The translations under genes were made by a program, and so were the position numbers. A DNA stretch of 43,680 nt from Acidobacteriota bacterium (lineage in GTDB: Bacteria; Acidobacteriota; UBA6911; RPQK01; JAJDTT01), in NCBI GenBank assembly GCA_022827025.1, contig JAJDTT010000244.1, forward strand, positions 1-43,680, given 5' to 3'. The notes under the pieces were generated by a model. The model had not been told where the DNA came from. It was given only the letters and a program-made list of their open reading frames with translations, and did not search any database. Of this stretch, positions 1,132 to 32,777 are shown in pieces (the stretch's first letter is position 1; the number at the start of each line of letters is the position of its first letter).

Positions 1132-2748
1132 ATGAAGTTGTCCGTATTTGTGCGTGCTCTTGCGCTGCTCGGGTTTTCCTTGGCGGTGTCCTGCCAATCG
1201 GGAGGGCCCGCCGTCGATCGTCCCGACGGGGTGGCGGTGCTGGTGGGGAGCCGTCCGACCGTTGCGGAGGCTTCGCTTTTTCCTTTCGACAACCATTCGA
1301 TTCCCTTCACCCAGAACATCGGGTTGAAGCTGCATCCGCCGCGCAAGCATCCCGGCAATCCGGTGCTGCCCCGGGGACCGGAGGGGGCGCCGGACGAGTT
1401 CGGGGTCCAGTTCTACGGTTCCGTGGTTCGCCACGAGGGAAAGTTCAAGCTCTGGTACGTGGCCATCGGCCGCGATCCCTTCACGGTCGTGGAGAAGGAC
1501 ATGATGTGGACTCCCCGGGTGGACATCATCCCGTTGAAGTGGCGCGCCGCCTACGCCGAGAGCACCGATGGAATTCACTGGACGCGCCCCGCGCTGGGAC
1601 TGGAGGAGTACGACGGCAGCCGGGACAACAACCTGGTGCTGGTGGAGCCGGCACCGCTGGGAGTCATCAACCTGAAGGTGATCCACGACCCCGAAGATCC
1701 CGATCCCTCGCGGCAGTTCAAGATGTCGCTTCACACCTGGTGGCACGAGGATGGGAAGAAGAGATTGGGGACCCTGGCCCCTGCGGTGAGCGGGGACGGC
1801 CTGCGGTGGCGCCTGGCCGTTCCCGGGACTCCGGAGAACGGCTTGCTGCCCAAGGAGAGTACGGTCATCCCGACGGACCACTTCGAGGCCGCCGGGGGAC
1901 TCTACAAGTGGGACGGGCTGTTTCACGCCTCGGGCCAGGGAGCCCGGCCGGTCTACGCGGTCGACTCGTGGGGCCGGTCGGTGGGCACCTACCGCTCCCC
2001 CGACTTTGTCCGCTGGGAACACACCGGGACCCTCTCCTTCTCCCGGGAGGGACAGCACAAGAAGGTCCCCAGCGGCTCCGGGGAAGAGTCTCACGAAGGG
2101 ATCAGCGTCTGGAACCGGGGCAACGTGCTGCTGGGACTCTACGGCGTCTGGCACGGCTCGCCCGATTGGCGGGGGAGGACCGTGGATCTGGGTTTCGTGG
2201 TCAGCAACGACGGCGTCCATTTCCGGGAGCCCCTCACCGACTTCGTCTTCATCCGCCGGGGAGAGGACCACGAGTGGGACCAGGGCGGCCTGATTCAGGG
2301 CCAGGGGTTCGAGAACGTGGGGGAGGAGACCTACATCTGGTACGGGACCTGGGACCCGGGGTCGCTGGAGCCCCGGGGCGGAGTGGGCCTGGCCACGCTG
2401 GATCGGGACCGGTTGGGCTCCTTCTCCGTGCGGGACGATTCGATTCCGGCGGCCTTCATGACGGCCGCCCTCGAGGCGCGTGGGGACGCGAAGCTGTGGG
2501 TCAATGCGGAGGGAGTTTCCGGCGACGCCGCGCTACGGGTGGAGCTGTTTGACGCGTTGGAGCGGCCGCTGGACGGCTATTCGGGGGAAGAGGCCGCGGT
2601 GGTGACGGAATCGGGGCTGCGGGTGCCGGTCTCCTGGCCGCGAGGGAACAGGATCCCGGGAATGGAGAAACCCTTCAAGATCAAGGTGAGCTTCGAGGGA
2701 GCGGAGGTGGCTGGAATCCGGGTCTACGCCCTCTATGCCGGGACCTGA
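1132..2748 (+). CDS. Secreted lipoprotein with glycoside-hydrolase-like five-bladed propeller
   Basis: The 538-residue product begins with a lipoprotein signal (hydrophobic stretch, lipobox AVSC, Cys21), so it should be membrane-anchored outside the cytoplasm. The body carries signatures shared with seven other proteins in the window: AYAESTDGIHW, a NNL element and HDPEDPDPSRQFK. These resemble the repeated blade motifs of GH32/GH43-like five-bladed propellers. It is the most diverged member: the LFxDD motif near the N-terminus is reduced to LFPFDN, and the C-terminal sandwich is less well conserved. A strong ribosome site (AAAGGAGAT) precedes the ATG. The likely role is glycan hydrolysis or binding. 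A CAZy family cannot be assigned from motifs alone. Confidence 0.75.
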   Translation: MKLSVFVRALALLGFSLAVSCQSGGPAVDRPDGVAVLVGSRPTVAEASLFPFDNHSIPFTQNIGLKLHPPRKHPGNPVLPRGPEGAPDEFGVQFYGSVVRHEGKFKLWYVAIGRDPFTVVEKDMMWTPRVDIIPLKWRAAYAESTDGIHWTRPALGLEEYDGSRDNNLVLVEPAPLGVINLKVIHDPEDPDPSRQFKMSLHTWWHEDGKKRLGTLAPAVSGDGLRWRLAVPGTPENGLLPKESTVIPTDHFEAAGGLYKWDGLFHASGQGARPVYAVDSWGRSVGTYRSPDFVRWEHTGTLSFSREGQHKKVPSGSGEESHEGISVWNRGNVLLGLYGVWHGSPDWRGRTVDLGFVVSNDGVHFREPLTDFVFIRRGEDHEWDQGGLIQGQGFENVGEETYIWYGTWDPGSLEPRGGVGLATLDRDRLGSFSVRDDSIPAAFMTAALEARGDAKLWVNAEGVSGDAALRVELFDALERPLDGYSGEEAAVVTESGLRVPVSWPRGNRIPGMEKPFKIKVSFEGAEVAGIRVYALYAGT

Positions 2749-4621: not shown

Positions 4622-6238
4622 ATGTTCGTCCTCAGGGGGTTCCGTCGGCTTCAATGCCTGTTACTGCTTCTGGGTGTGTGGGGAGCCGGGATCCGGGCCA
4701 ATCCGGTCGACGTGGGGTCCCGGAAGCAGCTCTTCTTCGACGACCACGTCATCGAATCGATGCGGGGCGTCTACCGGATCATGAACCAGCCGCTCAAATA
4801 TGCCGGGAACCCGGTGATCCGGATGGACCGGTGCTGGGAGGCGGACATGCACTTCGGCAACTCCCCCAACCTGGCCTACGATCCGGATCGAGGCGTCTAC
4901 CAGATGTGGCACCAGGTGGTGAACTACAACTGGTCGGAGAACTTCGTCGGCTACTACGAGTCCCGTGACGGGCTGCACTGGGACAAGCCCCTGGTGGGGC
5001 AGTTCGACTACCACTCCCCCTGGTGCCGGGGAGAGCCCTCACGGAACCACAATTTCGTCTTCGGGAAGGGCGTGGGGGCCCGCGCCCCGGGCGTGGCGCG
5101 CGACCCGCACGAGCCGGATCCCGGCAAGCGGTACAAGATGCTCTACCGCCACAACAGCAAGGACCCCAAGGTGAACGGGGTCTGGGCGGCCCATTCGCCC
5201 GACGGCATCCGATGGAAACTCTACGACGGCATCAATCCGGTCTTCCTGAACAACGACACCCACCAGGTCTTCTTCTGGGACCCCCGGCGCGAACTCTACG
5301 TGGCCCACATTCGTCTCTGGCCGCCCATCTTCAAGGACCATCCGCTGTTTCAGGGCACGCGGCGGGAGGGACGGGTGAGGACCCCGGGGATCGCCACCAG
5401 TCCCGATTTTCTGAACTGGGACGCGCCCGCGGAGATGAAGGATCCGGTGGAGGTGAACCGGAAGTACATCCTGGTCCCCCCGGACGAGAAGGACGCCCCC
5501 TGCACCGGGGGCTTCTACACCTTCGAGACCCTGCTCTACGAAGGGATCTACATCGGGTTCCTGACCCCGTATCACATCTGTCCGGGGATGGAGCCCATGA
5601 CGCCCCCCAGCCGGGACCTGGCGAGAAACCCCTGGCTGGACCGGATCGACATCCAGTTGGCCTTCAGCCGCGACGGCACGAAGTGGCAAAGGGTGGGCCA
5701 GCGGAGGCCCTTCATACCCAACGGCCCGGAAGGCAGCTACGACTCGGGGATGATCTTCGTGGCCCAGCCTCCCCTGGTCCGGGAGGACCGGGGCGAGATC
5801 TGGCTCTACTACACCGGGTTCAAGAAGGGGCATTGGGGCGTGAACCGGGGCGAGAACCAGGAGAGTTCCCAGAACTTGGCGGTGCTTCGCCTGGACGGCT
5901 TCATCTCGCTGGCGGCGGGGCGGGGCCACTTCACCACGCGGCCCCTGAAATTCTCGGGGAACCGGCTGCGATTGAACGGGTCGACGGCGGGAGACGAGGG
6001 AGCGATCCAGGTGGAGATCCTGGATCCCGAAACCGGCGAGCCCCTGCCCGGTTATTCGCGGGAGGATTGCCAATCCTTCCGGGGAGACGCCATCGCGCAT
6101 ACCGTGACCTGGAGAAAGAAATTCGACCTGACGGCTCTGGAGGGCCGCGCCGTCCAGCTCAGGTTCCACCTGCAGCGCAGCAAGATTTTTTCCTTCCAGT
6201 TCTCCTCGGAATGGCTGATGGCGGATCCGCCGCCATGA
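4622..6238 (+). CDS. Secreted glycoside-hydrolase-like propeller protein, pair member A1
   Basis: The 538-residue protein has a signal peptide (residues 1-26, ending GIRA). KQLFFDD (35-41) is the family's N-terminal mark. Propeller signatures follow: YYESRDGLHW, DPHEPDPGKRYK, HSPDGIRW and WDPRRELY. The C-terminal domain (LRLDGFISL...TTRPLKFSGNRL...FSFQF) resembles a beta-sandwich. ATG 4622 is preceded by GGAGA at a suitable distance; an upstream in-frame ATG at 4556 would remove the signal peptide from the N-terminus. Its closest relative is the gene at 27159-28817, with long shared blocks such as MNQPLKYAGNPV / VNQPLKYAGNPV and a shared MDRCW. The GWxTD gene follows 34 nt downstream, so they may be co-transcribed. 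The likely role is glycan cleavage in the periplasm or outside; the substrate is not predictable. Confidence 0.8.
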   Translation: MFVLRGFRRLQCLLLLLGVWGAGIRANPVDVGSRKQLFFDDHVIESMRGVYRIMNQPLKYAGNPVIRMDRCWEADMHFGNSPNLAYDPDRGVYQMWHQVVNYNWSENFVGYYESRDGLHWDKPLVGQFDYHSPWCRGEPSRNHNFVFGKGVGARAPGVARDPHEPDPGKRYKMLYRHNSKDPKVNGVWAAHSPDGIRWKLYDGINPVFLNNDTHQVFFWDPRRELYVAHIRLWPPIFKDHPLFQGTRREGRVRTPGIATSPDFLNWDAPAEMKDPVEVNRKYILVPPDEKDAPCTGGFYTFETLLYEGIYIGFLTPYHICPGMEPMTPPSRDLARNPWLDRIDIQLAFSRDGTKWQRVGQRRPFIPNGPEGSYDSGMIFVAQPPLVREDRGEIWLYYTGFKKGHWGVNRGENQESSQNLAVLRLDGFISLAAGRGHFTTRPLKFSGNRLRLNGSTAGDEGAIQVEILDPETGEPLPGYSREDCQSFRGDAIAHTVTWRKKFDLTALEGRAVQLRFHLQRSKIFSFQFSSEWLMADPPP

Positions 6239-16976: not shown

Positions 16977-17082
16977 TGACCCCTCCTTGCCGGATCCCGG
17001 ACCGGGCTTCGGTTCAGCGTTCCCCTGCATCGACTTGATCCCAGAGCCGGGTTGGGGATGCATTGGATACTACAGGCTCCGA

Positions 17083-17600: not shown

Positions 17601-18908
17601 CTACCGAACAGAGTCGCCTGATATCTTTTTTGGGCTCGCTGGAGACTTCATCCGCTCTTCGTGCTCTCGCGCCCGCTCCAAATTGCCCAGCTTGACGTAG
17701 ACGGCGTGCAGCAGCCGGTGATGCTCCGTAAGGGCGAGCGAACCCTCCTTGCCGGCCGGTAGGCGCGCCAGGCGCCGCTCCAGGTCCAGGGCCTTCACGG
17801 CCCAGGTCTCGGCCTCGTTGAACCGTTGGCGGTGCAGACTGGAGACGGCCATCAGAAAAGGCCCGACCGGCGCCAGCGGGTTGATCTGAATGATCTTGCG
17901 AGCCCGGTTCGAGGTCTCCCGGATCCGGCCTTCCGCCAACTCCAACTCGGCCAGGTCGGCCAGATGGCCGACGGCGGGAGCGCATCGACGGGCCGCTTTC
18001 CGCAATTCGGAGAGTGCATCTGCCTTCCTCCCAATTGCCTTGAGGCTTCTCCCCAGAAAGTTGAGCAGACGGCAGTCGTCGGGATGGGAACGGGCATATT
18101 CGCTCAGCCGCCGGACGGCTTCGGAATGCGCCCCCCGGCGCCATGCCAGCCCGCCTCGATACAGGTCAATCTCGGCGTGGCCGCTGTCCAGCTCTTCGGC
18201 TCTCTCGATCGCCTCCCGGCCCAGATCGTTGCGCCCCAGCTCCAGGTAGACGCCGGCCAACTCCAGGTGCACGGACGCGGACGCCTTGGGAGAGGACGCC
18301 AGGTTCTGCAGTGTCCGCAGTTGCTTCTGCAGATGCTCCCGCTTCCGGTGAAAGCGAAGCACGCCCCGCCCTTCGTCCCGCCTTCCTTGCCGGAGCAGCG
18401 CCCGGCCCAAATGGAAGAGGGCCGGATCATACTCGGGATCCGAGTCCAAAGCCGCGAGAAAGGAGCTTCCGGCCTCCCGGTAGCGGCCGGCTTTCAGATC
18501 GATGCGTCCCATGTAATACAGCGAGGCAGCGTCGCCGGGCCGGTCTCCGAGAACGTGTCGGAACTCTCTTCGCGCCTCCTCGTGACGGCCTTGATGAAAG
18601 TAGACGATCCCGACCCGGGTGCGGATCCTCCAAGGGTCGTCGAAGCCTGCCGCCCGGGCCTTCTCAAAACTCACGAGGGCTGTCCGGTAACGCCCCAGGA
18701 CGGTCTCGCAGATCCCTTTCCGGTAGTAGAGCCGGGGATCGGGCCCCTCGGTCCTCAAGAGGGTCTCCAGGTCGTCCAGAGCTCCCGCGTAGTTGTCGTT
18801 GCGCATCTTGGCCAGGACGCCCTCGGGCGAGACCGATTCGCCCTGAATCGGCGCGCCCGGGAGGGCGAAAACCGGAACGAGAAACAGCAGCGCCGAGGCG
18901 AAATTCAC
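17601..18908 (-). CDS. Secreted TPR-repeat protein, last gene of the overlapping operon
   Basis: The 435-residue product starts at a GTG whose bases overlap the TGA of the upstream gene (GTGA, 4 nt), so it is probably translationally coupled. The N-terminus VNFASALLFLVPVFALPGAP is a signal peptide. From about residue 35 to 420 there are roughly ten tetratricopeptide-like helical pairs (YAGALDDLETLL, GRYRTALVSFEKA, GRHEEARREFRHVL, GRYREAGSSFLAAL and others). A longer frame up to 18974 exists but would overlap further without a ribosome site. TPR proteins next to CRTAC1-like genes are common in Acidobacteria and Planctomycetes. It is inferred to be a periplasmic scaffold. Confidence 0.83.
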   Translation of the reverse strand: MNFASALLFLVPVFALPGAPIQGESVSPEGVLAKMRNDNYAGALDDLETLLRTEGPDPRLYYRKGICETVLGRYRTALVSFEKARAAGFDDPWRIRTRVGIVYFHQGRHEEARREFRHVLGDRPGDAASLYYMGRIDLKAGRYREAGSSFLAALDSDPEYDPALFHLGRALLRQGRRDEGRGVLRFHRKREHLQKQLRTLQNLASSPKASASVHLELAGVYLELGRNDLGREAIERAEELDSGHAEIDLYRGGLAWRRGAHSEAVRRLSEYARSHPDDCRLLNFLGRSLKAIGRKADALSELRKAARRCAPAVGHLADLAELELAEGRIRETSNRARKIIQINPLAPVGPFLMAVSSLHRQRFNEAETWAVKALDLERRLARLPAGKEGSLALTEHHRLLHAVYVKLGNLERAREHEERMKSPASPKKISGDSVR

Positions 18909-20566
18909 GGTTCTTGAATGGAGATGGTGCGGTTCAATGTTCGGGGTGGCGTCACCTGCTGGGTTTTCCCGCACGGCCAGGAGATCCGAATCGAATCGAT
19001 CCTCGTCCGCTGCCCCAGGCCGAAGTGGAGCCGCGGGTCATTTTGGCTCAGGTAGCTGCTGGCTGACCGCAGCTCCCGGGTCAGTTCCAGGCCGCCGGTC
19101 CCCAGGATCACCCGGGCCCCCACGGCGTCCCGGTTGCAGTGGGTCCCCCGCAGCCGGAAGCGGATCCAGTTGCCACTTCCCTCGGTCCGGTTCTCCAGCA
19201 GGTCGGCCTTCCCTCCGCAGTTGGTCACCAGCAGGTCCAGCTTTCCGTCGTTGTTGAAGTCCCCCACGGCCGAGCCCCGGGAGACGTTCGGCACCGAAAA
19301 ATAGTCCCCGTGACCGCCGGCCTCGGCGAACCGTCCCTTCCCGTCATTCAGGAACAACTGGTTCGGCTGGCGATACCGGCTGCCCTGATTGGCGCGGGCC
19401 GCCTCCTCCAGGACGTGTCCGTTGGCCACGAAGAGATCCAGGTCACCGTCGTTGTCGGCATCGAAGAAGTTGGCTCCGAATCCCAGGGGAACGAAGCTGG
19501 GCCCCGAGAGCCCCGAATCGATGATCCGGTCACTGAAGAATTCCCCGTCCTCGTTCCAATAGAGGGCGTTGTACTGGAGGGAGTAGTTGGTGACCAGGAC
19601 ATGGAAGCGGCCTCCTCCGTCCAGGTCGCCGGCGGCCACTCCCATGCCGGCCTGCGCCATGCCGGAGCCGCCCAATGCGGTCCCCGATTCCAGGGAGATG
19701 TCCTGAAAGCTGCCGTCGCCCCGGTTCCGGAACATGTAGTTTCCGGTGGTGTCGTTGGCCACGTACAGGTCCTGATCTCCGTCCCGGTCCAGGTCCAGCC
19801 AGAGGACTCCCAGACTCTTGCTGTAACGGGCCTCCTCCCGCAAGCCGGCGCTCCGGGTCAGGTCGATGAAGGTGCGTCCTCCCAGGTTCCGGTAGAGGAC
19901 GTTGCCCACTCCCTCGAAGCCATGGGGATAGCAGTAGATGGGGATCTGCCCGAAGTAGCAGGGTTCATGGTCCTGAAATGAGAACTCCAGGTAGTTGGCC
20001 AGGTAAAGGTCCAACAGCCCGTCCCCGTCGTAGTCGGCGAAGGCGGCGCTGGTCCCCCATCGGGGATCGGCGACCCCCGATCGCCTGCTCACGTCCCGAA
20101 AGGCGCCGTCCCCCAGGTTCCGGTAGAGCACGTTGGGCCCCACGTTGGTGAGATAGATGTCCACAAGTCCGTCGTTGTCGTAGTCGCCGAAGGCGCACCC
20201 CATGCCGTAGGACGAGTTCCCGACTCCCGCCTCCCCGGTGACGTCGGCGAAGGTCCCGTCCCCGCGGTTCCGGTACAGGCGGTTTGAACCGCGGCCGTTG
20301 ACGAGATAGATGTCCACAAGTCCGTCGTTGTCGTAGTCCAGAAAACCGCCTCCGGACCCCATGGTCTCGATCAGGTACTTGGCCCCCGGGTCGGGTTCGG
20401 CGACCTGGTTTCGGTGGACGAATTCCAGCCCCGCCTCCCGGCTGACATCGGCAAAGCGGAGCGTCGTCTCGTCTTTCGCCGGGAGCTGGGCATGAAGGAC
20501 CAGAATGAGGACCGGCAACAATCCCTTTGCCGGGGGCGACGCGGCCTGGGTCCGAGACCGGCTCAT
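18905..20566 (-). CDS. CRTAC1-like FG-GAP/VCBS propeller protein with ASPIC/UnbV C-terminal domain
   Basis: The 553-residue protein starts at an ATG overlapping the preceding stop (ATGA, 4 nt). A signal-like hydrophobic segment (LLPVLILVLHAQLPA) lies at about 15-29. At least six calcium-binding FG-GAP/VCBS repeats follow, with DxDxDG loops: DYDNDGLVDIYL twice, DYDGDGLLDLYL, DLDRDGDQDLYV, DADNDGDLDLFV and DFNNDGKLDLLV. The C-terminal about 90 residues (GTHCNRDAVGARV...LHFGLGQRTRIDSIRISWPCG) are the ASPIC/UnbV module. The fold is an integrin-alpha-like propeller, probably for binding at the cell surface. It is the third gene of a four-gene operon with two glycan-type propellers and a TPR protein. 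Confidence 0.92.
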   Translation of the reverse strand: MSRSRTQAASPPAKGLLPVLILVLHAQLPAKDETTLRFADVSREAGLEFVHRNQVAEPDPGAKYLIETMGSGGGFLDYDNDGLVDIYLVNGRGSNRLYRNRGDGTFADVTGEAGVGNSSYGMGCAFGDYDNDGLVDIYLTNVGPNVLYRNLGDGAFRDVSRRSGVADPRWGTSAAFADYDGDGLLDLYLANYLEFSFQDHEPCYFGQIPIYCYPHGFEGVGNVLYRNLGGRTFIDLTRSAGLREEARYSKSLGVLWLDLDRDGDQDLYVANDTTGNYMFRNRGDGSFQDISLESGTALGGSGMAQAGMGVAAGDLDGGGRFHVLVTNYSLQYNALYWNEDGEFFSDRIIDSGLSGPSFVPLGFGANFFDADNDGDLDLFVANGHVLEEAARANQGSRYRQPNQLFLNDGKGRFAEAGGHGDYFSVPNVSRGSAVGDFNNDGKLDLLVTNCGGKADLLENRTEGSGNWIRFRLRGTHCNRDAVGARVILGTGGLELTRELRSASSYLSQNDPRLHFGLGQRTRIDSIRISWPCGKTQQVTPPRTLNRTISIQEP

Positions 20567-22209
20567 TCCGTCCAGAGCGCGTAGAGGGAGCCTTTTCGGA
20601 GGTGGATCCTCAGGACCACGGTCTGCCCGTTCAAGCGGGCCACGGAATCGGATCCACTCCAACGGATCGGGAACCGGGTCCGGTCGCCGCTGAGCGAGAG
20701 GCTGTCAGCGCCGGAGAACCCGGGAACGGGCCCTCCATGGGCATCCAGGACCTCGACCCGGATCCGGCCGCCGGGGGCGTCCAGATTGACCCAGAGTCGA
20801 TTCCCGCTCATCACCAGGGGACGGGTGGTCAGCGTCCCTTCGCGCCGTCCCGCGTCCAGCGACACGAACCCGTCCCGGCGCAGCACCGCCAGGTGAATGG
20901 CGGAATGGCCGTCGTCCACGTAGTCGGCGCGCTCCCGCGGGTTCAGGGTATCGGGGCTGCGCGGGCTCCCGTCCAGGTACCGGTCATAGGGGCAGACCCG
21001 CCATTTGAAGCCCGAGTAGTAGAACCACAGTTCTTCCTCCTTCTCCACCGGCCGGTTGGTGGGCATCAACTGCATCCGGTCGTAGTTGCCGGCCAAGCCC
21101 TGGTCGAGGCGCGACGGCCCGATGAAGGGCTCGCGGTTCCCCAGGCGCTCCCAACGCTGCAGGTCCCGCGTCATGGCCAACTGGATCAGGTGGAAGCCGT
21201 CGGCGTTGCGCCGCTCCGGAAGCCGTCTCCCGGTAGGGTAGAAGATCATGGGCAGTCCGATGTAGAGGCCTTCGTAGGGAAAGACGCCGATGTTGTAGGA
21301 CTGGGCGTTCCAGATACCCCGGTTTCGGAACTCCACATCGGGCGGTGTCCATCCGATGGAGGGATCCGGGTCCACGAAGAGAGGCCGGGCCAGACCCGGG
21401 TCGGCGATCCGTCTCCGGATCACTTCGAGGGCGTGCTCCTGGTCCCGGTCATCGGTGCTGAAGAAGTATCGGGGCTCCGACCAGTTCACGAAGTCCTTGC
21501 TGACGGAGAGATTGTAGGACCGGCCGTACTTGCCGCCGAACTTGAGCAGGCCCAGAAACTGCCGCCGTTCCCGGTCATAGGTCAGGGTGCCGGCATCGCC
21601 GGAAGGCAGGACCGGAACTTCCAGGATCGTCCAGTGGACGGCGTCGGGACTGACCACGGGCCGGCGGCCGCTGTGGCCGAGGAAACCCTTGTACCGCCGG
21701 GCGGGGTCGGGATCGTCCGGGTCGTGGACCACGTGCCAGAGCCGCTTGTTCTCGGGAGCGGCGATGAGATTGTTGGCCCGGGAGCCACGGAAGTCCACCG
21801 CGCCCAGGTCGGGCTTTTCCCAGGTCAGGCCGTCGCGGGACGTGGCCAGAGCCCAACGGAAGCTCTCTTCGGCGTACCGGAGCGGCCGTCCCTCGTAGAC
21901 CATTTTGTAGTGTCCCTCCCCCTCGATCCACATGGGCGCCGAGACGGTGGCGGTGAAGCGGCCGTCCGAGGGCCGGTCCGGCAGCAGCACGGCCCCCCGC
22001 TTGGCGGGCCGGCGCATGACCCGGTCCAGGTTCCGGATCTCGCCGACAATGTGCTCATCCAGGAAGAGCTGCTTGCGCCCCGGCTCCAGGGGGACCGGTT
22101 CTTCCTCGGCGGCGGATCTTCCCTGCCCCGGCAGTAGCAGGAAGAACAGGATCGCGAACATCCAAGGGCGTGGGCTCACGGCAGGTTCTCCGTTTCGCTT
22201 GGCGCTCAT
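20563..22209 (-). CDS. Secreted glycoside-hydrolase-like propeller protein, pair member B2
   Basis: The 548-residue protein has a start overlapping the preceding stop (ATGA, 4 nt). A signal peptide runs to about residue 33 (WMFAILFFLLLPGQGRSA). KQLFLDE is the family mark. Blade signatures include ATSRDGLTWEKPDLG, HDPDDPDPARRYK, LTYDRERRQFLGLL and SVSKDFVNWSEPR. The C-terminal sandwich ends LVMSGNRLWVNL...LYALWTE. It is closest to the gene immediately upstream (22206-23810), with long identical blocks (RRYKGFLG, SGRRPVVSPD, LPSGDAGTLTYDRE, GRSYNLSVSKDFV). This indicates tandem duplication followed by divergence. Role by analogy: glycan hydrolysis outside the cytoplasm. Confidence 0.82.
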   Translation of the reverse strand: MSAKRNGEPAVSPRPWMFAILFFLLLPGQGRSAAEEEPVPLEPGRKQLFLDEHIVGEIRNLDRVMRRPAKRGAVLLPDRPSDGRFTATVSAPMWIEGEGHYKMVYEGRPLRYAEESFRWALATSRDGLTWEKPDLGAVDFRGSRANNLIAAPENKRLWHVVHDPDDPDPARRYKGFLGHSGRRPVVSPDAVHWTILEVPVLPSGDAGTLTYDRERRQFLGLLKFGGKYGRSYNLSVSKDFVNWSEPRYFFSTDDRDQEHALEVIRRRIADPGLARPLFVDPDPSIGWTPPDVEFRNRGIWNAQSYNIGVFPYEGLYIGLPMIFYPTGRRLPERRNADGFHLIQLAMTRDLQRWERLGNREPFIGPSRLDQGLAGNYDRMQLMPTNRPVEKEEELWFYYSGFKWRVCPYDRYLDGSPRSPDTLNPRERADYVDDGHSAIHLAVLRRDGFVSLDAGRREGTLTTRPLVMSGNRLWVNLDAPGGRIRVEVLDAHGGPVPGFSGADSLSLSGDRTRFPIRWSGSDSVARLNGQTVVLRIHLRKGSLYALWTE

Positions 22210-23810
22210 TCGGTCCAGAACGAATACAACGAGGCATCCCGAAGATGGATCTTCAACCTCACCGTCCGGCCCGCCAGGCCGGACAATCCGTCCCCCCCCT
22301 TCCATGAGGCCGCGACCCGGACCTGGTCCCCTCCGGCCGCCGCCGAATCATCCAGCCCGAAGCCGGGCACGGCGCGCCCCGTTTCGTCCAGGACCTCCAC
22401 GCGGGCTTCCCCTTCCGGAGCCTGGAGATTCAGGAACAGGCGGTCGCCGGCCATCTTCAGAGGTTTCGTCAGCAGGAATCCCCCGGTCTCTTCCGCATCC
22501 AGGGAAACGAACCCGTCCCGCCGCAGGACCGAGACGTACACGGCGCTGAGGGTGTCTTCGATCCAGTCCGCCCGCTCCTCGGCGGACAGGGTGGACGGAT
22601 CGCGAGGCGCGCCGTTCCGGTACCGGTCATGCTGGGGGACGCGGCGCTTCATGCCGGTGTAGTAGAACCAGAGCTCGTCTCCCCGGTCCACGGGTTGGTT
22701 GGTCACGTTGAGTTGCAGACGGTCGTAGTTTCCCACCAGGCCCTCATCCAGGCGGGACGTGGCGATGAACGGCTGGCGGTTGCCCAGGCGCTTCCAGGTC
22801 TTGAGGTCGCGGGTCATGGCCAACTGCATCTCGTTGAACCCGTCGGTGTTGGCCTTCTCGGGCAACCGGATGCCGGTGGGATAGAAGAACATGAGCCAGC
22901 CCAGGTGCATCCCTTCGTAGGGAAACACGCCGATGTTGTAGCACTGGACGTTCCAGGTGCCCCGGTTCCGGAATTTCCCCGGCGGCTGCGTCCAGCCGGT
23001 GGCCGGATCGGGATCCACCATCAGGGGCTTGGCCAGGCCCGGATCGGCCAGCCGGCGGCGGATGACGTCCAGGGCCATCCTCTGGTCCTCGTCGTCGGTG
23101 CTGAAGAGGAACCGCGGCTCCGACCAGGTCACGAAGTCCTTGCTGACGGAGAGGTTGTAGGAGCGCCCGTACCTGCCGAGGAACTTGAGCAGCCCCAGGA
23201 ACTGCCGGTTCTCCCGGTCGTAGGTGAGGGTGCCCGCATCGCCCGAGGGGAGTTTCTCCACGTCCAGCAGCTTCCAGTGGATGCAGTCGGGACTCACCAC
23301 CGGACGCCGTCCGCTGGCGCCCAGGAACCCCTTGTAGCGCCGCCCGGGATCCGGGTCGTCCGGGTCGTAGACCACCTGCCAGAGGCGCTGCCTCTCAGGA
23401 GAGTCGATCAGGTTGTTCTCCTTGTTGCCGTTGAACTCCAACACCCCCAGGTTCGGTTTGTCCCAGTTGAGGCCGTCCCGGGAGAGGGCCAGCGCCCAGT
23501 AGGTCGTGCCCTTCCCTTCGCTTGGCCGGTGCCTCGCTTCGTACACGAACTTGTAGATCTCCTCATCGGGGATCCACATGGGGGCGCTGACCGTCTGCAC
23601 AAGGGTTCCGTCCGAGGGGATGTCCGCCTTGAGGACGACCCCCCGCTTGCGGGGCCGGTGAAAGCTCCGGGTCAGATTCTCAGTCTTTTCCAGGACGTGC
23701 TCGTCGAGAAAAAGCTCCCGTTTCCCCGGCTCCAGCGGGATCGCGTCGGCGGGTCCCGCCCACAGGCAGGGACTCAACGACAGCCATGCCGCCAACAGCA
23801 CCCAGCACAT
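22206..23810 (-). CDS. Secreted glycoside-hydrolase-like propeller protein, pair member B1 (first gene of the operon)
   Basis: The 534-residue protein has a signal peptide (CWVLLAAWLSLSPCLWA), then KRELFLDE and the family's blade motifs (ALSRDGLNWDKPNLG, YDPDDPDPGRRYK, SVSKDFVTWSEPR, VFPYEGMHLG). The C-terminal sandwich includes VLRRDGFVSLDA, TKPLKMAGDRLFLNL and LYSFWTE. The start at 23810 has GAGGAAAGG about 9 nt upstream. The frame continues to 24977 only because the opposite strand carries another GC-rich gene. It leads an operon of four genes joined by 4-nt overlaps. It is divergent from a more distant relative at 23892, with an 81-nt shared control region. Confidence 0.82.
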   Translation of the reverse strand: MCWVLLAAWLSLSPCLWAGPADAIPLEPGKRELFLDEHVLEKTENLTRSFHRPRKRGVVLKADIPSDGTLVQTVSAPMWIPDEEIYKFVYEARHRPSEGKGTTYWALALSRDGLNWDKPNLGVLEFNGNKENNLIDSPERQRLWQVVYDPDDPDPGRRYKGFLGASGRRPVVSPDCIHWKLLDVEKLPSGDAGTLTYDRENRQFLGLLKFLGRYGRSYNLSVSKDFVTWSEPRFLFSTDDEDQRMALDVIRRRLADPGLAKPLMVDPDPATGWTQPPGKFRNRGTWNVQCYNIGVFPYEGMHLGWLMFFYPTGIRLPEKANTDGFNEMQLAMTRDLKTWKRLGNRQPFIATSRLDEGLVGNYDRLQLNVTNQPVDRGDELWFYYTGMKRRVPQHDRYRNGAPRDPSTLSAEERADWIEDTLSAVYVSVLRRDGFVSLDAEETGGFLLTKPLKMAGDRLFLNLQAPEGEARVEVLDETGRAVPGFGLDDSAAAGGDQVRVAASWKGGDGLSGLAGRTVRLKIHLRDASLYSFWTE

Positions 23811-23833
23811 CCGCTTTTCCCTTTCCTCGAATT

Positions 23834-23845
23834 GTGGATTTCCAC
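23834..23845. promoter_or_regulatory. Operator-like inverted repeat in a divergent promoter region
   Basis: GTGGA-TT-TCCAC, flanked by ATT on the left and (C)AAT on the right, lies within the 81-nt gap between two divergently transcribed propeller genes. Symmetry and location suggest a regulator site. No matching copy was found elsewhere by eye. Confidence 0.25.
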
Positions 23846-23891
23846 CAATCATGACACCCTGTCCGAAAACATCCAACCGGGGGAATCCCAG

Positions 23892-25316
23892 ATGAATCAC
23901 TCGAGAGTACTGGCCACCAGCCTCCTGGCGTTGCTGGCCATGCCCATCCTGCAATCGGGCCAATCGCCGGCCCAAATCGGAAGTGAGCGCCAACTGTTCG
24001 TGGATCGGCTGCTGATCGACCGCATGGACGGAGTCCGATTGAAGATGCACTCTCCCGTTCGCCGGGAGGCCGCCCTGCGCATGGAGCATCCGTGGGAAGA
24101 GAAGGGTGTTTCCTACATGGTGACCTTCAAGGACGGAGACCGCTTTCGGGCCTGGTACCGCGCCGACGCCGCCACCCATCGGACCGCCTACGCCGAAAGC
24201 AGAGACGGCATCACCTGGGTGAAACCCCTGATCGGCCCGATCCCGTTCGGAGACCACAAGAAGACCAACCTGGTCTGGGAAGCCGAGAACCGGGCCGGCA
24301 ACCTCTCCGTTCTCAAGGACCCGAACCCGGATGTACCTCCCGGGGAACGGTACAAGGGGATCGTCCGCGGCCGGAACCAGGTCCGGGCATTGGTCTCGGA
24401 GGATGGGATTCACTGGCGGCGGTTCCGGGAGCAGCCCCTGATCGACAGCTTCCCCGTCGACTCCCACAACATCCTGATCTGGGATCCGCACCAAGAGCAA
24501 TACGCCATCTACTTGCGGGGTATCCGAAAGGTCCCCGGCGTGGCGATCGACAACACCTCCTGGAAGGATCTGGGAGTCCGCTGGGTGCGGCGCTCGTTGT
24601 CCCGGGATTTTCGGAACTGGTCGGAGCCGCGGCTCATCGAATCGGGAAGTTCCCCCATCGAGCAGTTCTACACCAACGACACCGTCGTCTACGAACGGGC
24701 TCCCACCTGGTTTCTCATGTTCCCGTCCCGCTTCGTGGTGGAGCGGGTGCCGGTGCCCGACTGGCCCGCCGGGTCCGGCGTCAACGACATCGTCCTGCTC
24801 TCCAGCCGGGACGGCATCAACTGGGACCGGACCTTCCGGGAGGCCTTCCTGCGGCCGGGGCCCGATCCCAATACCTGGCACGAGCGGGCGCTGTACATGG
24901 AACACGGGATTTTGCAGACCGGTCCCCGGGAGCTGTCCATGTACGCCATGCACAACTGGAGAACGGACGACACCCACATCCGCCGGCTCAGTCTGCGAGT
25001 GGACGGTTTCGCCTCAGCGCATGGCGACTACGCGGGAGGTGTCCTCATCACCCGCCCGCTGGTCTTCGAGGGGAGCGAACTGGAGATCAACTTCGCCACC
25101 TCCGCGGTGGGCAGCCTCCGTTTCGAGCTTCGGGACGGGAGCAACAACCCGCTTCCGGGCTACACGCTACAGGACTGTGACGAGATCTACGGGGACGAGA
25201 TCGACCGGGTGGTGAAGTGGAAGGGCGGTCCCGAAGTCTCCTCCCTGGCGGGAAAGGCGGTCCGCCTCCACATCCAACTGCGGGACGCCGACCTCTATTC
25301 CTTCCGCTTCCGGTAG
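23892..25316 (+). CDS. Secreted glycoside-hydrolase-like propeller protein, single member
   Basis: The 474-residue protein has a signal peptide (MNHSRVLATSLLALLAMPIL...SPAQ), then RQLFVDRLLIDRMDGVRLKM, the propeller signatures YAESRDGITWVKPLIG, PPGERYKGIVRG, VSEDGIHWRRF and WDPHQEQYAIYLRG. The C-terminal sandwich contains LRVDGFASAHGDYAGG, RPLVFEGSELEINF and LYSFRFR. Its architecture and C-terminus are closest to the 506-residue duplicates at 29701-32777 (LFVDG, EVSSLAGKAVRL versus DVSSLAGRPVRL). The ribosome site is weak. It is divergent from the 23810 operon, so both may respond to the same regulator. Confidence 0.8.
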   Translation: MNHSRVLATSLLALLAMPILQSGQSPAQIGSERQLFVDRLLIDRMDGVRLKMHSPVRREAALRMEHPWEEKGVSYMVTFKDGDRFRAWYRADAATHRTAYAESRDGITWVKPLIGPIPFGDHKKTNLVWEAENRAGNLSVLKDPNPDVPPGERYKGIVRGRNQVRALVSEDGIHWRRFREQPLIDSFPVDSHNILIWDPHQEQYAIYLRGIRKVPGVAIDNTSWKDLGVRWVRRSLSRDFRNWSEPRLIESGSSPIEQFYTNDTVVYERAPTWFLMFPSRFVVERVPVPDWPAGSGVNDIVLLSSRDGINWDRTFREAFLRPGPDPNTWHERALYMEHGILQTGPRELSMYAMHNWRTDDTHIRRLSLRVDGFASAHGDYAGGVLITRPLVFEGSELEINFATSAVGSLRFELRDGSNNPLPGYTLQDCDEIYGDEIDRVVKWKGGPEVSSLAGKAVRLHIQLRDADLYSFRFR

Positions 25317-25909: not shown

Positions 25910-26149
25910 TCATCGCCTCGTCATCTGATCTTCAAGGTTGTCCGAGATCCATTGATTCAAACTCTTGCCGTGTTCTTTGGCCTGAACGTAGACCCGGCGG
26001 TGGAGTTCAGGCGGAAGTCTTAGCGTAAGGCGGCCTGTGAACGGTTTATCTGGATCTTCGCCGCGCTGAGAACAAAAATCCAAGTAGTCATCGATAGATT
26101 CTCGAAATGCCCGCTCAAGACCCTTGAGGGCTCTCTCGACTGCCTTCAA
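25910..26149 (-). pseudogene. Truncated HicB-family antitoxin-like ORF
   Basis: The recognisable part (AFRESIDDYLDFCSQRGEDP, FTGRLTLRLPPELHRRVYVQA, GKSLNQWISDNLE) matches the C-terminal two-thirds of HicB-type antitoxins, including the ribbon-helix-helix-like end. The N-terminal beta-sheet region expected in HicB is missing: upstream the frame enters the end of the oxidoreductase gene. The best start is a TTG overlapping the oxidoreductase TGA (TTGA, 4 nt), giving 79 residues; an ATG at 26227 would give 105 residues overlapping the neighbour. No HicA toxin is adjacent. It is probably a relic, but coupled expression of a shortened DNA-binding protein is possible. Confidence 0.55.
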
Positions 26150-27147: not shown

Positions 27148-27158
27148 GCCGTCACTCT

Positions 27159-28817
27159 CTACTGGAATTGAAAGGCGAAGATCTTGGCCCGCCGCAACTG
27201 AAATCGAAGGCGCACCGGTTGCCCCGCCAGTTCCTCCAGGCTTCGGCGGCTTCGCCAGGTGACGGCGTGCGCGACCGAGTTTCCCTGGAAGGCGTCGCAA
27301 TCCTCCCGGCCGAATCCCGCCAACGGAGCCCCGGTCGAAGCGTCCAGAACCTCGACCGTGACTCGTCCCTCATCGCCCGAGGTCCGGGCGTTGATTTCCA
27401 ATCGTTCCCCATCGAAAACGAGTGGCTTGGTGGTGAACTCCCCTTCACCGGCCGTCAACGAGACGAATCCATCCAGGCGCAACTTGGCCAGGTTGATGCT
27501 GCTCTCCTCGTTCTCACCTCGCGGCAGCGCCCAGTGACCCTTGCGGTAGCCGATGTAGTAGAGCCAGATCTCTCCCAGATCTCTCCGCACCACCGGCAAC
27601 TGGGCCATGTAGACCATCCCCGCATCGTAGGTGTCGGCGGGCCCGACCGGCAGGAAAGGACGGCCGTTTCCCAACCGGCGCCACTTCCGGCCGTCCCGGC
27701 TGGCGACCAGTTGGATGTCCACGGTGTCCAGCCACGGCGTCCGGGCGGTTCCCCGGACCGGTGGGATCCCCGGCTCCATCCCGCTGCAGACGTGGTAGCG
27801 GGTCAGGAAGGCCACGTACTGGTTCTCGTATGGCAGGCACTCCAGGGTGTAGAAGCCGCCGGTGCAGGGAGCGTCCCTCTCGTCGGGCGGGATCAGGAGG
27901 TAGGGCCGGTTGACTGCCACCGGTTCCTTCATCCCCTGGGGCGCGTCCCACTTCAGGAAATCGGGACTGGTGGCGATGCCGGGAGCCCGGACGCGGCCCT
28001 CTCGCGCCAGGAACCGGGAATCGCCTTCGAAGAGGGGAGGCCAGAGCCGAATGTGGGCCACGTACCGGCTTCGGGCCTCGTCCCAGAACACCACCTGGTG
28101 GGTGTCGTTGTTCATGTAGACGGGATTCACCTCGGGACTGGGATAGTTGGTCCAGCGGATCCCGTCGGGAGAATAGGCGGCCCAGACCCCACCTTTGACG
28201 GTTTCGGCATGGAATCCCGCCTGCCCCGGCTTGAGCGCGGGTCGCCGATAGAGCATCTTGTAGCGCTTCTCAGGATCCTCTTCGTGGGGATCCTTGAAGA
28301 CTCCCGGCGCCCGAACTCCGCCCGGCTTGCCAAAGACGAAGTTGTGCTCCCGGGAGGCCCGCCCCCTGCAGAATGGGGAACGGAAGTCGAACTGCCCCAC
28401 GGCCGGCGCTTCCCAGTCGATCCCGTTGACGGAGGTGTAGTACCCGAGAAGGTTCTCCTTCCAGAGATAGTCCACCACCTGGTTCCACATCTTGTAGATC
28501 TTCTCTTCCCGGTCGTAGATCAGGTTGCTGTGCCCGAAATCCATGTCGGCGCCCCAGCAACGGTCCATCTGCAGGACGGGGTTTCCGGCGTATTTCAGGG
28601 GTTGATTGACCAGCGAAAAGACGCCTCGCCGGGACTCCACGATCCGGTCGTCCAGGAAGAGCTGCTTCTGACGGCCGACCTGAACCGGTTGCGGCCCGGC
28701 CGCCGTGGCGATCCCGTCGCCACTCCAGAGAAAACAGGCCAGGAGACATGTCAGAAGGCGCACAGGTCCCGATTGCGGGTGTGGGACCGGGGCTGGTATC
28801 GACTTGGAAACGTTCAT
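27159..28817 (-). CDS. Secreted glycoside-hydrolase-like propeller protein, pair member A2
   Basis: The 552-residue protein has a long n-region and a hydrophobic leader (VRLLTCLLACFLWSG, ending ATAAG). KQLFLDDRIVESRRGV, VNQPLKYAGNPV, DPHEEDPEKRYK, YSPDGIRW and WDEARSRYVAHIRLWPPLF follow, and the C-terminal sandwich ends FAFQFQ. It is the closest relative of the gene at 4622-6238 more than 20 kb away, sharing TSPDFLKWDAP / TSPDFLNWDAP, DAPCTGGFYT and GEIWLYY. AGAGGAT precedes the ATG. It sits between an SDR gene and the Gfo/Idh/MocA gene in the same direction, so it is probably part of a catabolic operon. Confidence 0.83.
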   Translation of the reverse strand: MNVSKSIPAPVPHPQSGPVRLLTCLLACFLWSGDGIATAAGPQPVQVGRQKQLFLDDRIVESRRGVFSLVNQPLKYAGNPVLQMDRCWGADMDFGHSNLIYDREEKIYKMWNQVVDYLWKENLLGYYTSVNGIDWEAPAVGQFDFRSPFCRGRASREHNFVFGKPGGVRAPGVFKDPHEEDPEKRYKMLYRRPALKPGQAGFHAETVKGGVWAAYSPDGIRWTNYPSPEVNPVYMNNDTHQVVFWDEARSRYVAHIRLWPPLFEGDSRFLAREGRVRAPGIATSPDFLKWDAPQGMKEPVAVNRPYLLIPPDERDAPCTGGFYTLECLPYENQYVAFLTRYHVCSGMEPGIPPVRGTARTPWLDTVDIQLVASRDGRKWRRLGNGRPFLPVGPADTYDAGMVYMAQLPVVRRDLGEIWLYYIGYRKGHWALPRGENEESSINLAKLRLDGFVSLTAGEGEFTTKPLVFDGERLEINARTSGDEGRVTVEVLDASTGAPLAGFGREDCDAFQGNSVAHAVTWRSRRSLEELAGQPVRLRFQLRRAKIFAFQFQ

Positions 28818-28904
28818 GGCGATCCTCTTGAGTCAATTCTGCGAAAGGGTCGATCCGGAACGGAGCACGGTGCAGGCCTCCCCGCCGCCATCCCCCTGGT
28901 TCGG

Positions 28905-29687
28905 CTACATGGCCGTATACCCTCCGTCGACGACCAGATTGGCTCCGGTCACGTAGCTGGACGCATCCGAGGCCAGGAACAGGATGGCGGCAGCGACGTC
29001 CCGCGCTTCGGCCATCCGATTCAGCATGGTGCGGGCGCTGTAACGCCGGACGAACTCATCCGTGGCCGGCAGGACCCGGATCCCCCCCGGACTGACGCAG
29101 TTGCATCGCACCTGGGCCGGTCCGTAGTAGCTGGCCACGAAACGGGTGAAATTGATCATGCCCCCTTTGTGAAAGAAGTAGTCGGGAACGAAGGGACGGC
29201 GGTCCAGGCCCTGGTAGAGGCTCCGGTCGGGTCCGACCTGGCCTTGAATCGAGGCCACGTTGACGATGGAGCCGCCGCCGCGCTCCGCCATCACATCGCC
29301 GAACGTCCGCGTCACGGAGAAGAGGCCGGTCGCGTTGACCTGCATGCTCCGGGAGAAGCGCATCGGGTCGTCGGTCCAATCCTGCATGCTCCGGCCCACC
29401 GCAGCATTGACCAGAACATCCAGCCCGCCTTCGCGATCCAGAATGGTGGTCTTCAGATTCCGGATCGACTGCTCGTCCCCCTGGTCCAACGGGACCGGAA
29501 TCACGGACAGGCCCCGCTCGGCCAGCGTCTCGGCCACGGTCCGCATCCGGTCCACCCGAAGATCGCCCCCGTAGACCGTCGCCCCGGCTTCGGCCAGGCC
29601 CTGGATGAACGCCGGCGCGTGCCGCCCCGCCCCGCCGGTCACGAGCGCCACCTTGCCCTTCAGGGAGAAGCTGTCGAGAATTCCCAT
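28905..29687 (-). CDS. Short-chain dehydrogenase/reductase (SDR)
   Basis: The 260-residue classical SDR has N118, S146 (NVASIQGQ), Y170 and K174 (YFFHK) as catalytic tetrad. It also has the LVNAAVG segment (NNAG equivalent) and the typical end YVTGANLVVDGGYTAM. The cofactor loop is atypical: TGGAGRHA in place of TGxxxGxG, so glycines are missing at two positions. It should oxidise or reduce a sugar or sugar acid with NAD(P) in the cytoplasm. It begins 13 nt after the stop of the upstream propeller gene, which supports one transcript. A gluconate or sorbose-type dehydrogenase is a possible specificity, but this is a guess. Confidence 0.88.
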   Translation of the reverse strand: MGILDSFSLKGKVALVTGGAGRHAPAFIQGLAEAGATVYGGDLRVDRMRTVAETLAERGLSVIPVPLDQGDEQSIRNLKTTILDREGGLDVLVNAAVGRSMQDWTDDPMRFSRSMQVNATGLFSVTRTFGDVMAERGGGSIVNVASIQGQVGPDRSLYQGLDRRPFVPDYFFHKGGMINFTRFVASYYGPAQVRCNCVSPGGIRVLPATDEFVRRYSARTMLNRMAEARDVAAAILFLASDASSYVTGANLVVDGGYTAM

Positions 29688-29700
29688 ATTCAGGTCGACG

Positions 29701-31221
29701 TCACCGGAATCGAAGGGCGAACAGGTCCGCGTCCCGGAGCGAGAAACGCAGCCGCACCGGACGGCCAGCCAGGGAGGAGACGTCGGACCCTCCCTTCCAC
29801 CGGACCTCCCGTTCCAGCTCGTCGCCGAAGACCACGGAGCAGTCGTCGAGGCCGAATCCTTCCAGGGGAGTCCCCGCCGCGTCTTGCAGCTCCACCCGGA
29901 TGCTCCCGGCCGCCGAAGTCGAGAAGTTGAGGGTGAGCCGGCTGCCCTGGAATTCGAGGGGGCGTGTCACGATCTCGCCGCCCTCCATGGGAGCCGTCAC
30001 CGCTACGAAACCGTCAATTCGAAGGGTATAGCGGCGGATGTTCGTGCTGTTCCCCCTCCAATAGCCCTCGTTCACGTAGACGGAGAGCTCATTGGGAGCT
30101 CCCTCCATATGGCTTCGGGTCTCCACCAGCCCCCAGTTCTGATAGTTGTCCCCGTAGACCCAGTTGCCCACCGGCCTCAGTCCGGGACGAACGAAGGCCT
30201 CCTGCCAGCGCCGGAAGCTGATCCGGTCCCGGCCGGCCATGAAGATGCCCTCCGTCAGAGCCGTGCCGAACCGAACATGGACCCCGGCTCTCAGCCGCCG
30301 GTGCTCCTGCTCGGAAAGGGCCCTCATGGAGTCGGTCCATCCCCACTCGACGTAACGGGTGGGAAAGCCCAACAGGATGTGGGGAGCCCGGTAGTAGGGA
30401 AGGATCTGATTGGTGTAGAGCTCCTCGTCAGGCGCACCCGAGTAGCTGAGCGTGACGGGATCGGTCCAGTCCAGAAAGTCCTGGGAAGTGCCGGTCAGGA
30501 TGTCACGGATGCCGCGCCTGCCGGCGGGGTCGTCGTCAAGCTTCCTGAAGTAACGGTGATACTCGCGGTACTCGCGGCGCACCGGGTCCCAGAAGGCCAG
30601 GTTCTGCGAGTCGAAGGCGCCCTTGGTGATGACGGGCCGGTCGGCCATGAGGTCCCAGTGGATGCCGTCGGGAGACTTCCAGGCGTAGAGCCCCCGTGCC
30701 TCACTCCCGCTGGACAGGGCCTTGTACCGGGCGTCCGGAGCGGCCGCCGGGTTCGCATCCTTGAACGGCACGAAATTGTGAATCGTGCCGCCCACGGGAA
30801 TCCGGTCCAGAATGATGTTGTTGGATTTCGACCCTTCGAACTCCACCAGGCCCAGATTGGGACGGTACCAGTGGATCCCGTCCAGGCTCTCCACGGTGCA
30901 GACCACCTCGCGATGCCCCAGTTTCAGGGTGTCGCCGGTGATGAATTGGGATCCGCGGTAATACATGCGATAGCGGCCGTCGTCCCGAAAGACGGTGAAG
31001 TACCCGCACGCATTGCCCTCCCAACTCCGATCGGTCACCAGGACGACCTCCCTCGGTGTGGGGCGGCGCAGTTCGACGCGGGCCGCCCCCCGGATCTCCT
31101 CGATCAGGGCGCCGTCCACAAACAACTCGAGGCGCGACCCGATCTCCAGCCCCGGGCCTTGAGCCCAGACGGAAACACCGCTCCAGAACAGGAGGACGAA
31201 CAAGATCACTCGCAATGGCAT
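29701..31221 (-). CDS. Secreted glycoside-hydrolase-like propeller protein, tandem duplicate C2
   Basis: The 506-residue protein has a signal peptide (MPLRVILFVLLFWSGVSVWAQ), LELFVDGALIEEIRG, ESLDGIHWYRPNLGLVEFEG, NNIILDR, WKSPDGIHWDLMADRPVITKG and WDPVRREYREYHR. The C-terminal sandwich (LRIDGFVAVTAPMEGGEIVTRPL...FALRFR) closes the protein. It has the same length as, and is colinear with, the gene at 31257-32777, from which it is separated by 35 nt. The identical block starting TTCAGGTCGACGTCACCGG occurs at the 3' side of both genes, so the duplicated unit is about 1.56 kb. Role by analogy: extracellular glycan hydrolysis. Confidence 0.83.
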   Translation of the reverse strand: MPLRVILFVLLFWSGVSVWAQGPGLEIGSRLELFVDGALIEEIRGAARVELRRPTPREVVLVTDRSWEGNACGYFTVFRDDGRYRMYYRGSQFITGDTLKLGHREVVCTVESLDGIHWYRPNLGLVEFEGSKSNNIILDRIPVGGTIHNFVPFKDANPAAAPDARYKALSSGSEARGLYAWKSPDGIHWDLMADRPVITKGAFDSQNLAFWDPVRREYREYHRYFRKLDDDPAGRRGIRDILTGTSQDFLDWTDPVTLSYSGAPDEELYTNQILPYYRAPHILLGFPTRYVEWGWTDSMRALSEQEHRRLRAGVHVRFGTALTEGIFMAGRDRISFRRWQEAFVRPGLRPVGNWVYGDNYQNWGLVETRSHMEGAPNELSVYVNEGYWRGNSTNIRRYTLRIDGFVAVTAPMEGGEIVTRPLEFQGSRLTLNFSTSAAGSIRVELQDAAGTPLEGFGLDDCSVVFGDELEREVRWKGGSDVSSLAGRPVRLRFSLRDADLFALRFR

Positions 31222-31256: not shown

Positions 31257-32777
31257 TCACCGGAATCGAAGGGCGAACAGGTCCGCGTCCCGGAGCGCGA
31301 AACGCAGCCGCACCGGACGGCCCGCCAGGGAGGAGACGTCGGACCCTCCCTTCCACCGGACCTCCCGCTCCAGCTCGTCGCCGAAAACCACGGAGCAGTC
31401 GTCGAGGCCGAATCCTTCCAGGGGAGTCCCGGCCGCATCTTGCAGCTCCACCCGGATGCTCCCGGCGGCCGAAGTCGAGAAGTTGAGGAATAGCCGGCCA
31501 CCCTCGAAGACGAGAGGCCGGGTGACGATCTCGCCTCCCGCCATGGGAGCCGTCACGGCCACGAAGCCGTCGATTCGGAGCGTGTAGCGGCGGAGTTTCG
31601 TGCCGTCTCCCCTCCAGTAGCTCTCGTTCACGTAGACGGAGAGTTCATCAGGAGCTCCCTCGATATGGCTCCGGGTCTCCACGATGCCCCAGTTCTGATA
31701 GTTGTCCCCGTAGACCCAGTTGTCCACCGGCCTCAGCCCCGGACGGATGTAGGCTTCCTGCCAGCGGTGAAAGCTGATCCGGTCCCGGCCGGCCATGAAG
31801 AGGCCCTCCGTCAGAGCCGTGCCGTAACGGATATGGACGCCGGCTCTCAAACGCCGGTGCTCCAGCTCGGGAAGGGCCCTCATGGAGTCGGACCACCCCA
31901 GCTCGATGTAGCGGGTGGGAAACCCCAACAGGAGGTGCGGGGCCCGGTAGTAGGGGCGGATCTGGTTCGTGTAGAGCTCCTCGTCGGGCGCGCCGGGATA
32001 ACTGAGCCAGACGGGATCGGTCCAGTTCAGAAAATCCTGGGAAGCACCGGTCAAGACGTCGCGGATCCCGCGCGTTCCCTCCGGCAGCCCTGGGATCTTT
32101 CTGAATTCCCGGTGGTACCCACGGTACTCGCGGCGCACCGGATCCCAGAAGGCCAGGTTCTGAGAATCGAAGTAACCCTTGGTGATGACGGGCCGGTCGG
32201 CCATGAGCTTCCAGCGGATGCCGTCGGGGGATTTCCAGGCGTAGAGCCCCCGTTCCGGACTGCCCCGTGACACGGCCTTGTACCGGGCGTCCGGGGCCGC
32301 CTCCGGGTTCGCGTCCTTGAAGGGCACGAAATTGTGAACCGTGCCGCCCACGGGCAGCCGGTCCAGAATGATGTTGTTGGCATTGGACCCTTCGAACTCC
32401 ACCATGCCCAGGTCGGGGCGGTACCAGCGGATCCCGTCCAGGCTCTCGGCGTAGCAGATCACCTCTCGATGCGGACGCACCAGCCTCTTGCCGGTCTCGA
32501 AGTGGGACCCCCGGTAATACATGCGATAGCGGCCGTCGTCCTGGAACACGGTGAAGTGGCCGCACGCATTCCCTTCCCAGCTCCGGTCGGTCACCAGGAC
32601 GACCTCCCTGGGGGTGGGCCGGCGGAGCTCCACCCGGGCGTCCCCGCGGGTCTCCTCGATCAGGGCGCCGTCCACGAACAGCTCGAGCCGGGAACCGATT
32701 CCCAGTCCGGAATCCTGAGCCCGAACGGAAGCGCTGCTCCAAACCAGGAATGCGAACAAAGTCACTGGTACCCGCAT
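31257..32777 (-). CDS. Secreted glycoside-hydrolase-like propeller protein, tandem duplicate C1
   Basis: The 506-residue protein has a signal peptide (MRVPVTLFAFLVWSSASVRAQ) and the same order of motifs as its neighbour: LELFVDGALIEETRG, ESLDGIRWYRPDLGMVEFEG, NNIILDR, WKSPDGIRWKLMADRPVITKG and WDPVRREYRGYHR. The last about 75 residues differ from the neighbour by about one residue, while the first 400 differ clearly more often. It is the first gene of the leftward cluster that runs to 25334; AAGGGAG precedes the ATG. A divergent TonB receptor begins 208 nt away at 32986, so glycan uptake and cleavage genes share this intergenic region. Confidence 0.83.
   Translation of the reverse strand: MRVPVTLFAFLVWSSASVRAQDSGLGIGSRLELFVDGALIEETRGDARVELRRPTPREVVLVTDRSWEGNACGHFTVFQDDGRYRMYYRGSHFETGKRLVRPHREVICYAESLDGIRWYRPDLGMVEFEGSNANNIILDRLPVGGTVHNFVPFKDANPEAAPDARYKAVSRGSPERGLYAWKSPDGIRWKLMADRPVITKGYFDSQNLAFWDPVRREYRGYHREFRKIPGLPEGTRGIRDVLTGASQDFLNWTDPVWLSYPGAPDEELYTNQIRPYYRAPHLLLGFPTRYIELGWSDSMRALPELEHRRLRAGVHIRYGTALTEGLFMAGRDRISFHRWQEAYIRPGLRPVDNWVYGDNYQNWGIVETRSHIEGAPDELSVYVNESYWRGDGTKLRRYTLRIDGFVAVTAPMAGGEIVTRPLVFEGGRLFLNFSTSAAGSIRVELQDAAGTPLEGFGLDDCSVVFGDELEREVRWKGGSDVSSLAGRPVRLRFALRDADLFALRFR

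Follow-up and report, generated by a model that had tools for sequence, protein, structure and literature searches.

The window, i.e. the whole stretch of DNA analysed, is a 43,680-nt contig from a genome assigned to the Acidobacteriota. In its list of open reading frames four consecutive genes of the minus strand, designated A, B, C and D, follow each other with four-nucleotide overlaps (ATGA, ATGA and GTGA), whose positions are exactly those given in a preliminary description of this DNA (Table 1). The same description had spoken of duplicated glycosidase-like propellers coupled to a CRTAC1-like and a TPR protein, and the gene content bore this out. A and B are sister paralogs sharing 62% identity. 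C matched FG-GAP_3 with 164 bits in six stretches and UnbV_ASPIC with 71.6 bits (cut-off 23.4), whereas D matched TPR_16 with 83.5 bits (cut-off 32.7) in five stretches, both proteins thus scoring above the cut-off. The FG-GAP repeats and the ASPIC-UnbV domain are shared with CRTAC1/ASPIC-UnbV proteins (E 3.5e-27 to Cartilage acidic protein 1, 9etn), from which C differs in being bacterial and in sharing its operon with propellers and a TPR gene. DxD/NxDG-type motifs are visible in C, and its repeats are predicted from the sequence alone to be of the calcium type. Close to the N-terminus of each of the four proteins lies a hydrophobic 12-mer (mean hydropathy 2.07-2.53), and all four N-termini are predicted to be of the export type.

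Table 1. Features of the four-gene operon and other members of the propeller family in the window
Feature	Position	Strand	Remarks
Gene A, exported-type five-bladed propeller of GH32/GH43/GH130-type fold with C-terminal beta-sandwich (predicted)	22206..23810	-	534 aa
Gene B, sister paralog of A	20563..22209	-	548 aa if started at the overlapping ATG
Gene C, CRTAC1-like FG-GAP propeller with C-terminal ASPIC/UnbV domain	18905..20566	-	553 aa
Gene D, exported-type (predicted) TPR-repeat protein	17601..18908	-	435 aa, GTG start
ATGA overlap A/B	22206..22209	-	sequence; sister genomes
ATGA overlap B/C	20563..20566	-	sequence; sister genomes
GTGA overlap C/D	18905..18908	-	sequence; sister genomes; evidence for the start of D
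Divergent intergenic region A/E, candidate operon promoter region	23811..23891	.	81 bp
Gene E, divergent propeller of the A/B family, neighbour outside the operon	23892..25316	+	474 aa; G003 copy 94% identical
Distant propeller-family member	1132..2748	+	114 bits; 196 bits in a second profile search
Propeller-family member	4622..6238	+	profile matches
Propeller-family member P27, modelled	27159..28817	-	pLDDT 74.5
Propeller-family member, 84% identical to its tandem partner 31257-32777	29701..31221	-	profile match, tree
Propeller-family member, tandem partner of 29701-31221	31257..32777	-	profile match, tree

Conservation of the operon in the genus

The window genome (G000) was compared with the three other searched genomes of the genus (G001, G002 and G003). 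G003, a sister species, has the complete A-B-C-D order with all three overlaps. G001 keeps B-C-D on a contig that ends inside B, and G002 keeps C-D on a contig that ends inside C; the full order is present in two of the four genomes, the contigs of the other two stopping short. Elsewhere in the G002 assembly no ortholog of A or B was found, the best match to B being at 44%. The order shared with G003 comprises two tandem propellers, SDR, a propeller, GFO, DinB, the divergent propeller E, A-B-C-D and a TonB receptor, the divergent A/E layout is the same, and synteny extends over the larger share of the island's right half. Between D and the TonB receptor the window has a sensor kinase/response regulator hybrid (14619-17063), to which no match was found at the corresponding position of G003 or G001.

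Compared with G003, A has 91% amino acid identity and A, B and C together range from 91 to 93%, whereas D, with 73%, is the fastest-changing of the four. The dN/dS ratios of the same comparison (A 0.27, B 0.20, C 0.18, D 0.31) indicate that all four genes are under purifying selection. The gene order, whose conservation in related genomes the preliminary description had left to be checked, is kept across species of the genus and is not strain-specific. We conclude that the operon is real and conserved, and it was seen only within one genus.

Overlaps and start codons

The four-nucleotide overlap is the commonest overlap class in bacteria. In the genus such overlaps recur at all three junctions of G003, at both junctions on the G001 contig and at the single one in G002, the C/D overlap being found in all four genomes. 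Since the same overlaps are kept in the congeners despite a synonymous divergence of 0.19-0.57 between the operon genes of the window and G003, they appear to be more than chance.

The start of B is uncertain. A second in-frame GTG (22179), with GGAG 8 nt upstream, lies 30 nt inside the overlapping ATG (22209), and starting there gives a shorter leader and a tighter signal-peptide-like N-terminus; both starts are conserved in G003. GTG 22179 is possibly the true start, in which case the A/B overlap would not be used. The GTG start of D is well supported: a hydrophobic leader follows it directly in four of four genomes, and in three of them Lys is the second residue.

C and D as a module

Among the named loci containing a relative of C (the best 80 of at least 543), 54 had a TPR ORF within 1.5 kb. 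In this proximity C-D resembles the ASPIC-TPR pairs of Poribacteria, Latescibacteria, Acidobacteria and Gemmatimonadota, but in those pairs the TPR gene is often upstream, and a propeller of the A/B family accompanies them only in the same genus. Such a propeller was found in two of the 80 loci, namely L113, which is the G001 locus, and L186, with a weak 40-bit match; the C-type gene was without a clear propeller in 79 of the 80, an absence that is soft where loci are short, as many are. Within the genus, paralogs of C-D with 61-62% identity follow other genes, coding either for a GWxTD protein (recognised by Pfam in L102 and L103, and in L100 from the N-terminus only) or, at L101, for a GFO/MocA oxidoreductase. 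These observations suggest that C-D is a widespread module existing without propellers.

GWxTD proteins are encoded at 6273-7886 of the window, at 5377-7032 of L102 and at 2852-4537 of L103, those of the window and L102 being 59% identical. Elsewhere in the genus the GWxTD gene is directly upstream of C-D paralogs; in the window it comes after a propeller.

Among the papers listed in a literature search there was nothing on the A-B-C-D operon or on its propeller family. One publication (PMC12758564) reports on a gene of the CRTAC1 family that elsewhere lies between genes for enzyme subunits, a loose precedent for C beside enzymes.

Fold and ancestry of A and B

For A and B no Pfam or NCBIfam model scored above its cut-off, and a direct phmmer search of the PDB yielded no usable name for A. 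With GH32 (PF00251) B reached 14.6 bits (cut-off 22.1) and A gave no match, while among 32 family members a single sub-threshold match was seen (E 0.0079). Known enzymes were reached only by a profile of the 32 family members searched against PDB sequences (GH130 7fip, E 1e-11; GH32 1w2t, E 3e-10), which shows that there is detectable sequence homology to the GH32/GH43/GH130-type superfamily. The same profile matched the GalNAc deacetylase of Flavonifractor plautii (6n1a/6n1b) with E 4e-9.

In Foldseek the AlphaFold model of A, built from 7 window sequences (pLDDT 64.6), matched GH130, GH43 and GH32 propellers; in VIA it aligned with a GH130 phosphorylase at Z 17.7 (263 residues, 3.7 A). The model of family member P27 was better (pLDDT 74.5). 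Its top structural match was the F. plautii deacetylase (Z 23.1 through both domains, propeller and sandwich, over 316-320 residues), followed by BT_0996 (Z 22.6) and GH130 enzymes (about 21-22), where VIA rows within one Z unit are tied and do not separate the exact family. Among the matches listed for the two models, members of the superfamily (5b0p, 7fip, 1w2t and BT_0996, 5mt2) had Z values of 15-23. Judged by these models, whose quality is moderate, A is a five-bladed propeller of the GH32/GH43/GH130-type superfamily, and B is placed there through its identity to A; the C-terminal sandwich is presumably as in GH32. The A/B family differs from the known members of the superfamily in that it scores below the Pfam cut-offs, has QLFxDD and PWE motifs of its own, looks exported and is massively duplicated.

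In a tree of 36 rows A and B form a clade with 100/100 support, in which A and B of G003 and the partial B of G001 group with their own orthologs. As the copies group by ortholog across species, the duplication predates the separation of the species, and this tree indicates that A and B are old sister tandem duplicates.

Expansion of the propeller family

The window genome contains at least 128 matches to the family profile (150 of 175 candidates scored); 102 of the 109 listed places span at least 1,200 nt (total 148,440 nt, i.e. 2.8% of the 5.33-Mb genome). In G003, where 150 of 185 candidates were scored, at least 108 reached E <= 1e-50, so that the two congeners counted have about 100 family copies per genome. 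With B as query, 86-92 matching pieces were obtained in each of the four genus genomes (46 candidates scored per genome). Outside the genus, G022 of the same class had four family matches (60 of 60 candidates scored), and one of 14 genomes of the same order had a match to B. In the phylum, with at most four candidates scored per genome, 85 of 396 genomes had any match at E <= 0.001, and 27 had one at E <= 1e-50 among the matches listed. When contigs were scanned with the A/B alignment, 93 pattern matches came up, none of which was confirmed as a relative.

Eight family members lie within the 43.7-kb contig (1132-2748, 4622-6238, 20563-25316 and 27159-32777). A tight minus-strand cluster (26146-32777), made up of the two 84%-identical tandem propellers, SDR, a propeller and a GFO/MocA oxidoreductase, resembles a sugar-utilisation locus. 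To our mind the unnamed family of about 100 copies, and not the operon, is the larger surprise, and it is the part that specialists would want to follow.

Possible role of the operon

We estimate at roughly 55 per cent the probability that A-B-C-D is an operon peculiar to the genus, expressed as a unit and coding for exported proteins, in which the glycosidase-like duplicates A and B were joined to the C-D module, the overlaps couple translation and C and D may help the enzymes. A and B, which go back to an old tandem duplication of a secreted glycosidase-like propeller and stand upstream of the CRTAC1-like/TPR module, would most likely cut or remodel a glycan. The four genes are presumably co-transcribed, and the overlaps most likely couple their translation, by which all four proteins would be made together. 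At the cell surface or in the periplasm the enzymes may be helped by C through its calcium-type FG-GAP repeats and by D through its TPRs. Co-expression of A-B-C-D is likely and cooperation of the proteins plausible, whereas a physical complex of the four is unproven.

Another explanation, which we regard as unlikely but the strongest of the competing ones, is that A-B landed upstream of an unrelated C-D in the ancestor of the genus, the genes sharing a transcript only and having unrelated jobs. The modularity of C-D with its differing upstream genes is in keeping with such an incidental join, and because the island is syntenic with G003, the shared gene order is partly plain inheritance. Nor did propellers and ASPIC genes, whose coupling had been part of the preliminary description, show clear enrichment next to each other in the window genome: of 34 ASPIC genes (taken from the matches listed of 64, short fragments left out) three had a propeller within 500 bp, and with 4.8% of the genome that close about 1.6 would be expected. 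Propeller-ASPIC pairing as a genome-wide rule was rejected on this count. An alternative count gave 39 ASPIC domain matches; for 30 of these the surrounding 1.5 kb of the C-terminal domain, a distance that barely covers the upstream side, contained a TPR in eight cases and a propeller in one, the propeller figure being left out of account. What speaks against an incidental join is the retention of the three exact overlaps through the synonymous divergence given above.

The preliminary description had read the overlaps as the mark of a single complex, exported or on the surface, in which the TPR protein and the calcium propeller scaffold the two hydrolases. Its part on export is upheld as a prediction by the N-termini of all four proteins. 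For the complex itself one can also cite the conserved order and overlaps and the fact that TPRs often bind proteins. The step from overlap to complex with C and D as scaffold was not supported, however: C-type genes mostly occur without a clear propeller, C-D paralogs follow other genes in the genus, nearly all of the approximately 100 sister propellers in the window genome are without an adjoining ASPIC gene, and D diverges much faster than its presumed partners. Where half of an operon is a widespread module with other partners, as here, precisely overlapping genes by themselves argue only weakly for a complex, and we consider this arrangement improbable, about one chance in a handful.

Conserved residues bear on whether A and B are hydrolases at all. 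In place of the near-invariant PWE of the family (W in 29 and E in 28 of 32 members) both A and B have PSD, and their activity may therefore be altered. Added to this, the propeller part of the family has no invariant Glu and no Pfam enzyme family was found above its cut-off, all of which would suit glycan-binding or otherwise non-catalytic propellers. Against this the remaining near-invariant propeller acids (D36, D112, D149, D175, D191, D225 and D335 in A) are present in both proteins. Two of them, D36 and D149, do not vary in any of the 32 rows, and in the profile alignment D149 falls on the Asp of 'EDPR' in GH130, a catalytic residue there; a catalytic triad could not be assigned. We consider non-catalytic A and B quite improbable. 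Least probable of all is that A and B use this fold for a different kind of carbohydrate chemistry (deacetylase or phosphorylase), as the best structural match of P27 and the best profile match, a GH130 phosphorylase, might suggest: the F. plautii deacetylase, at 14-16% identity, presumably binds its metal through His, for which reason the absence of any conserved His from the 32 family rows lowers the rating of deacetylase chemistry, and phosphorylases are usually cytoplasmic whereas the A/B family looks exported.

Habitat and the wider role of the propellers

The lineage is probably sponge-associated, judging from bin names and from the company of matching genomes; most of the other matches in the search for C relatives are Poribacteria and Acidobacteria MAGs. 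The bin prefixes COS, RHO and IRC would fit the genus names of the sponges C. matthewsi, R. odorabile and I. ramosa. These three are hosts of the reef-sponge MAGs described in PMC8163846, which counts the Acidobacteriota of sponges (class Acidobacteriae) with the lineages in which glycosyl hydrolases are enriched.

That 2.8% of a symbiont-type genome consists of some 100 diverged copies of one unnamed propeller family points to a diet specialised on glycans. More broadly, and at a little less than even odds, the propellers could represent a new carbohydrate-active enzyme family outside Pfam and NCBIfam, its exported and diverged copies forming an arsenal for attacking a variety of glycans from host or reef, and A-B-C-D could be a specialised offshoot that arose when two of the copies took on a CRTAC1/TPR module. 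The single conserved operon would offer a small testable unit. Elsewhere in the window (39063-41761) a UxuA/xylose-isomerase-like TIM barrel adjoins a BNR-repeat (sialidase-like) protein.
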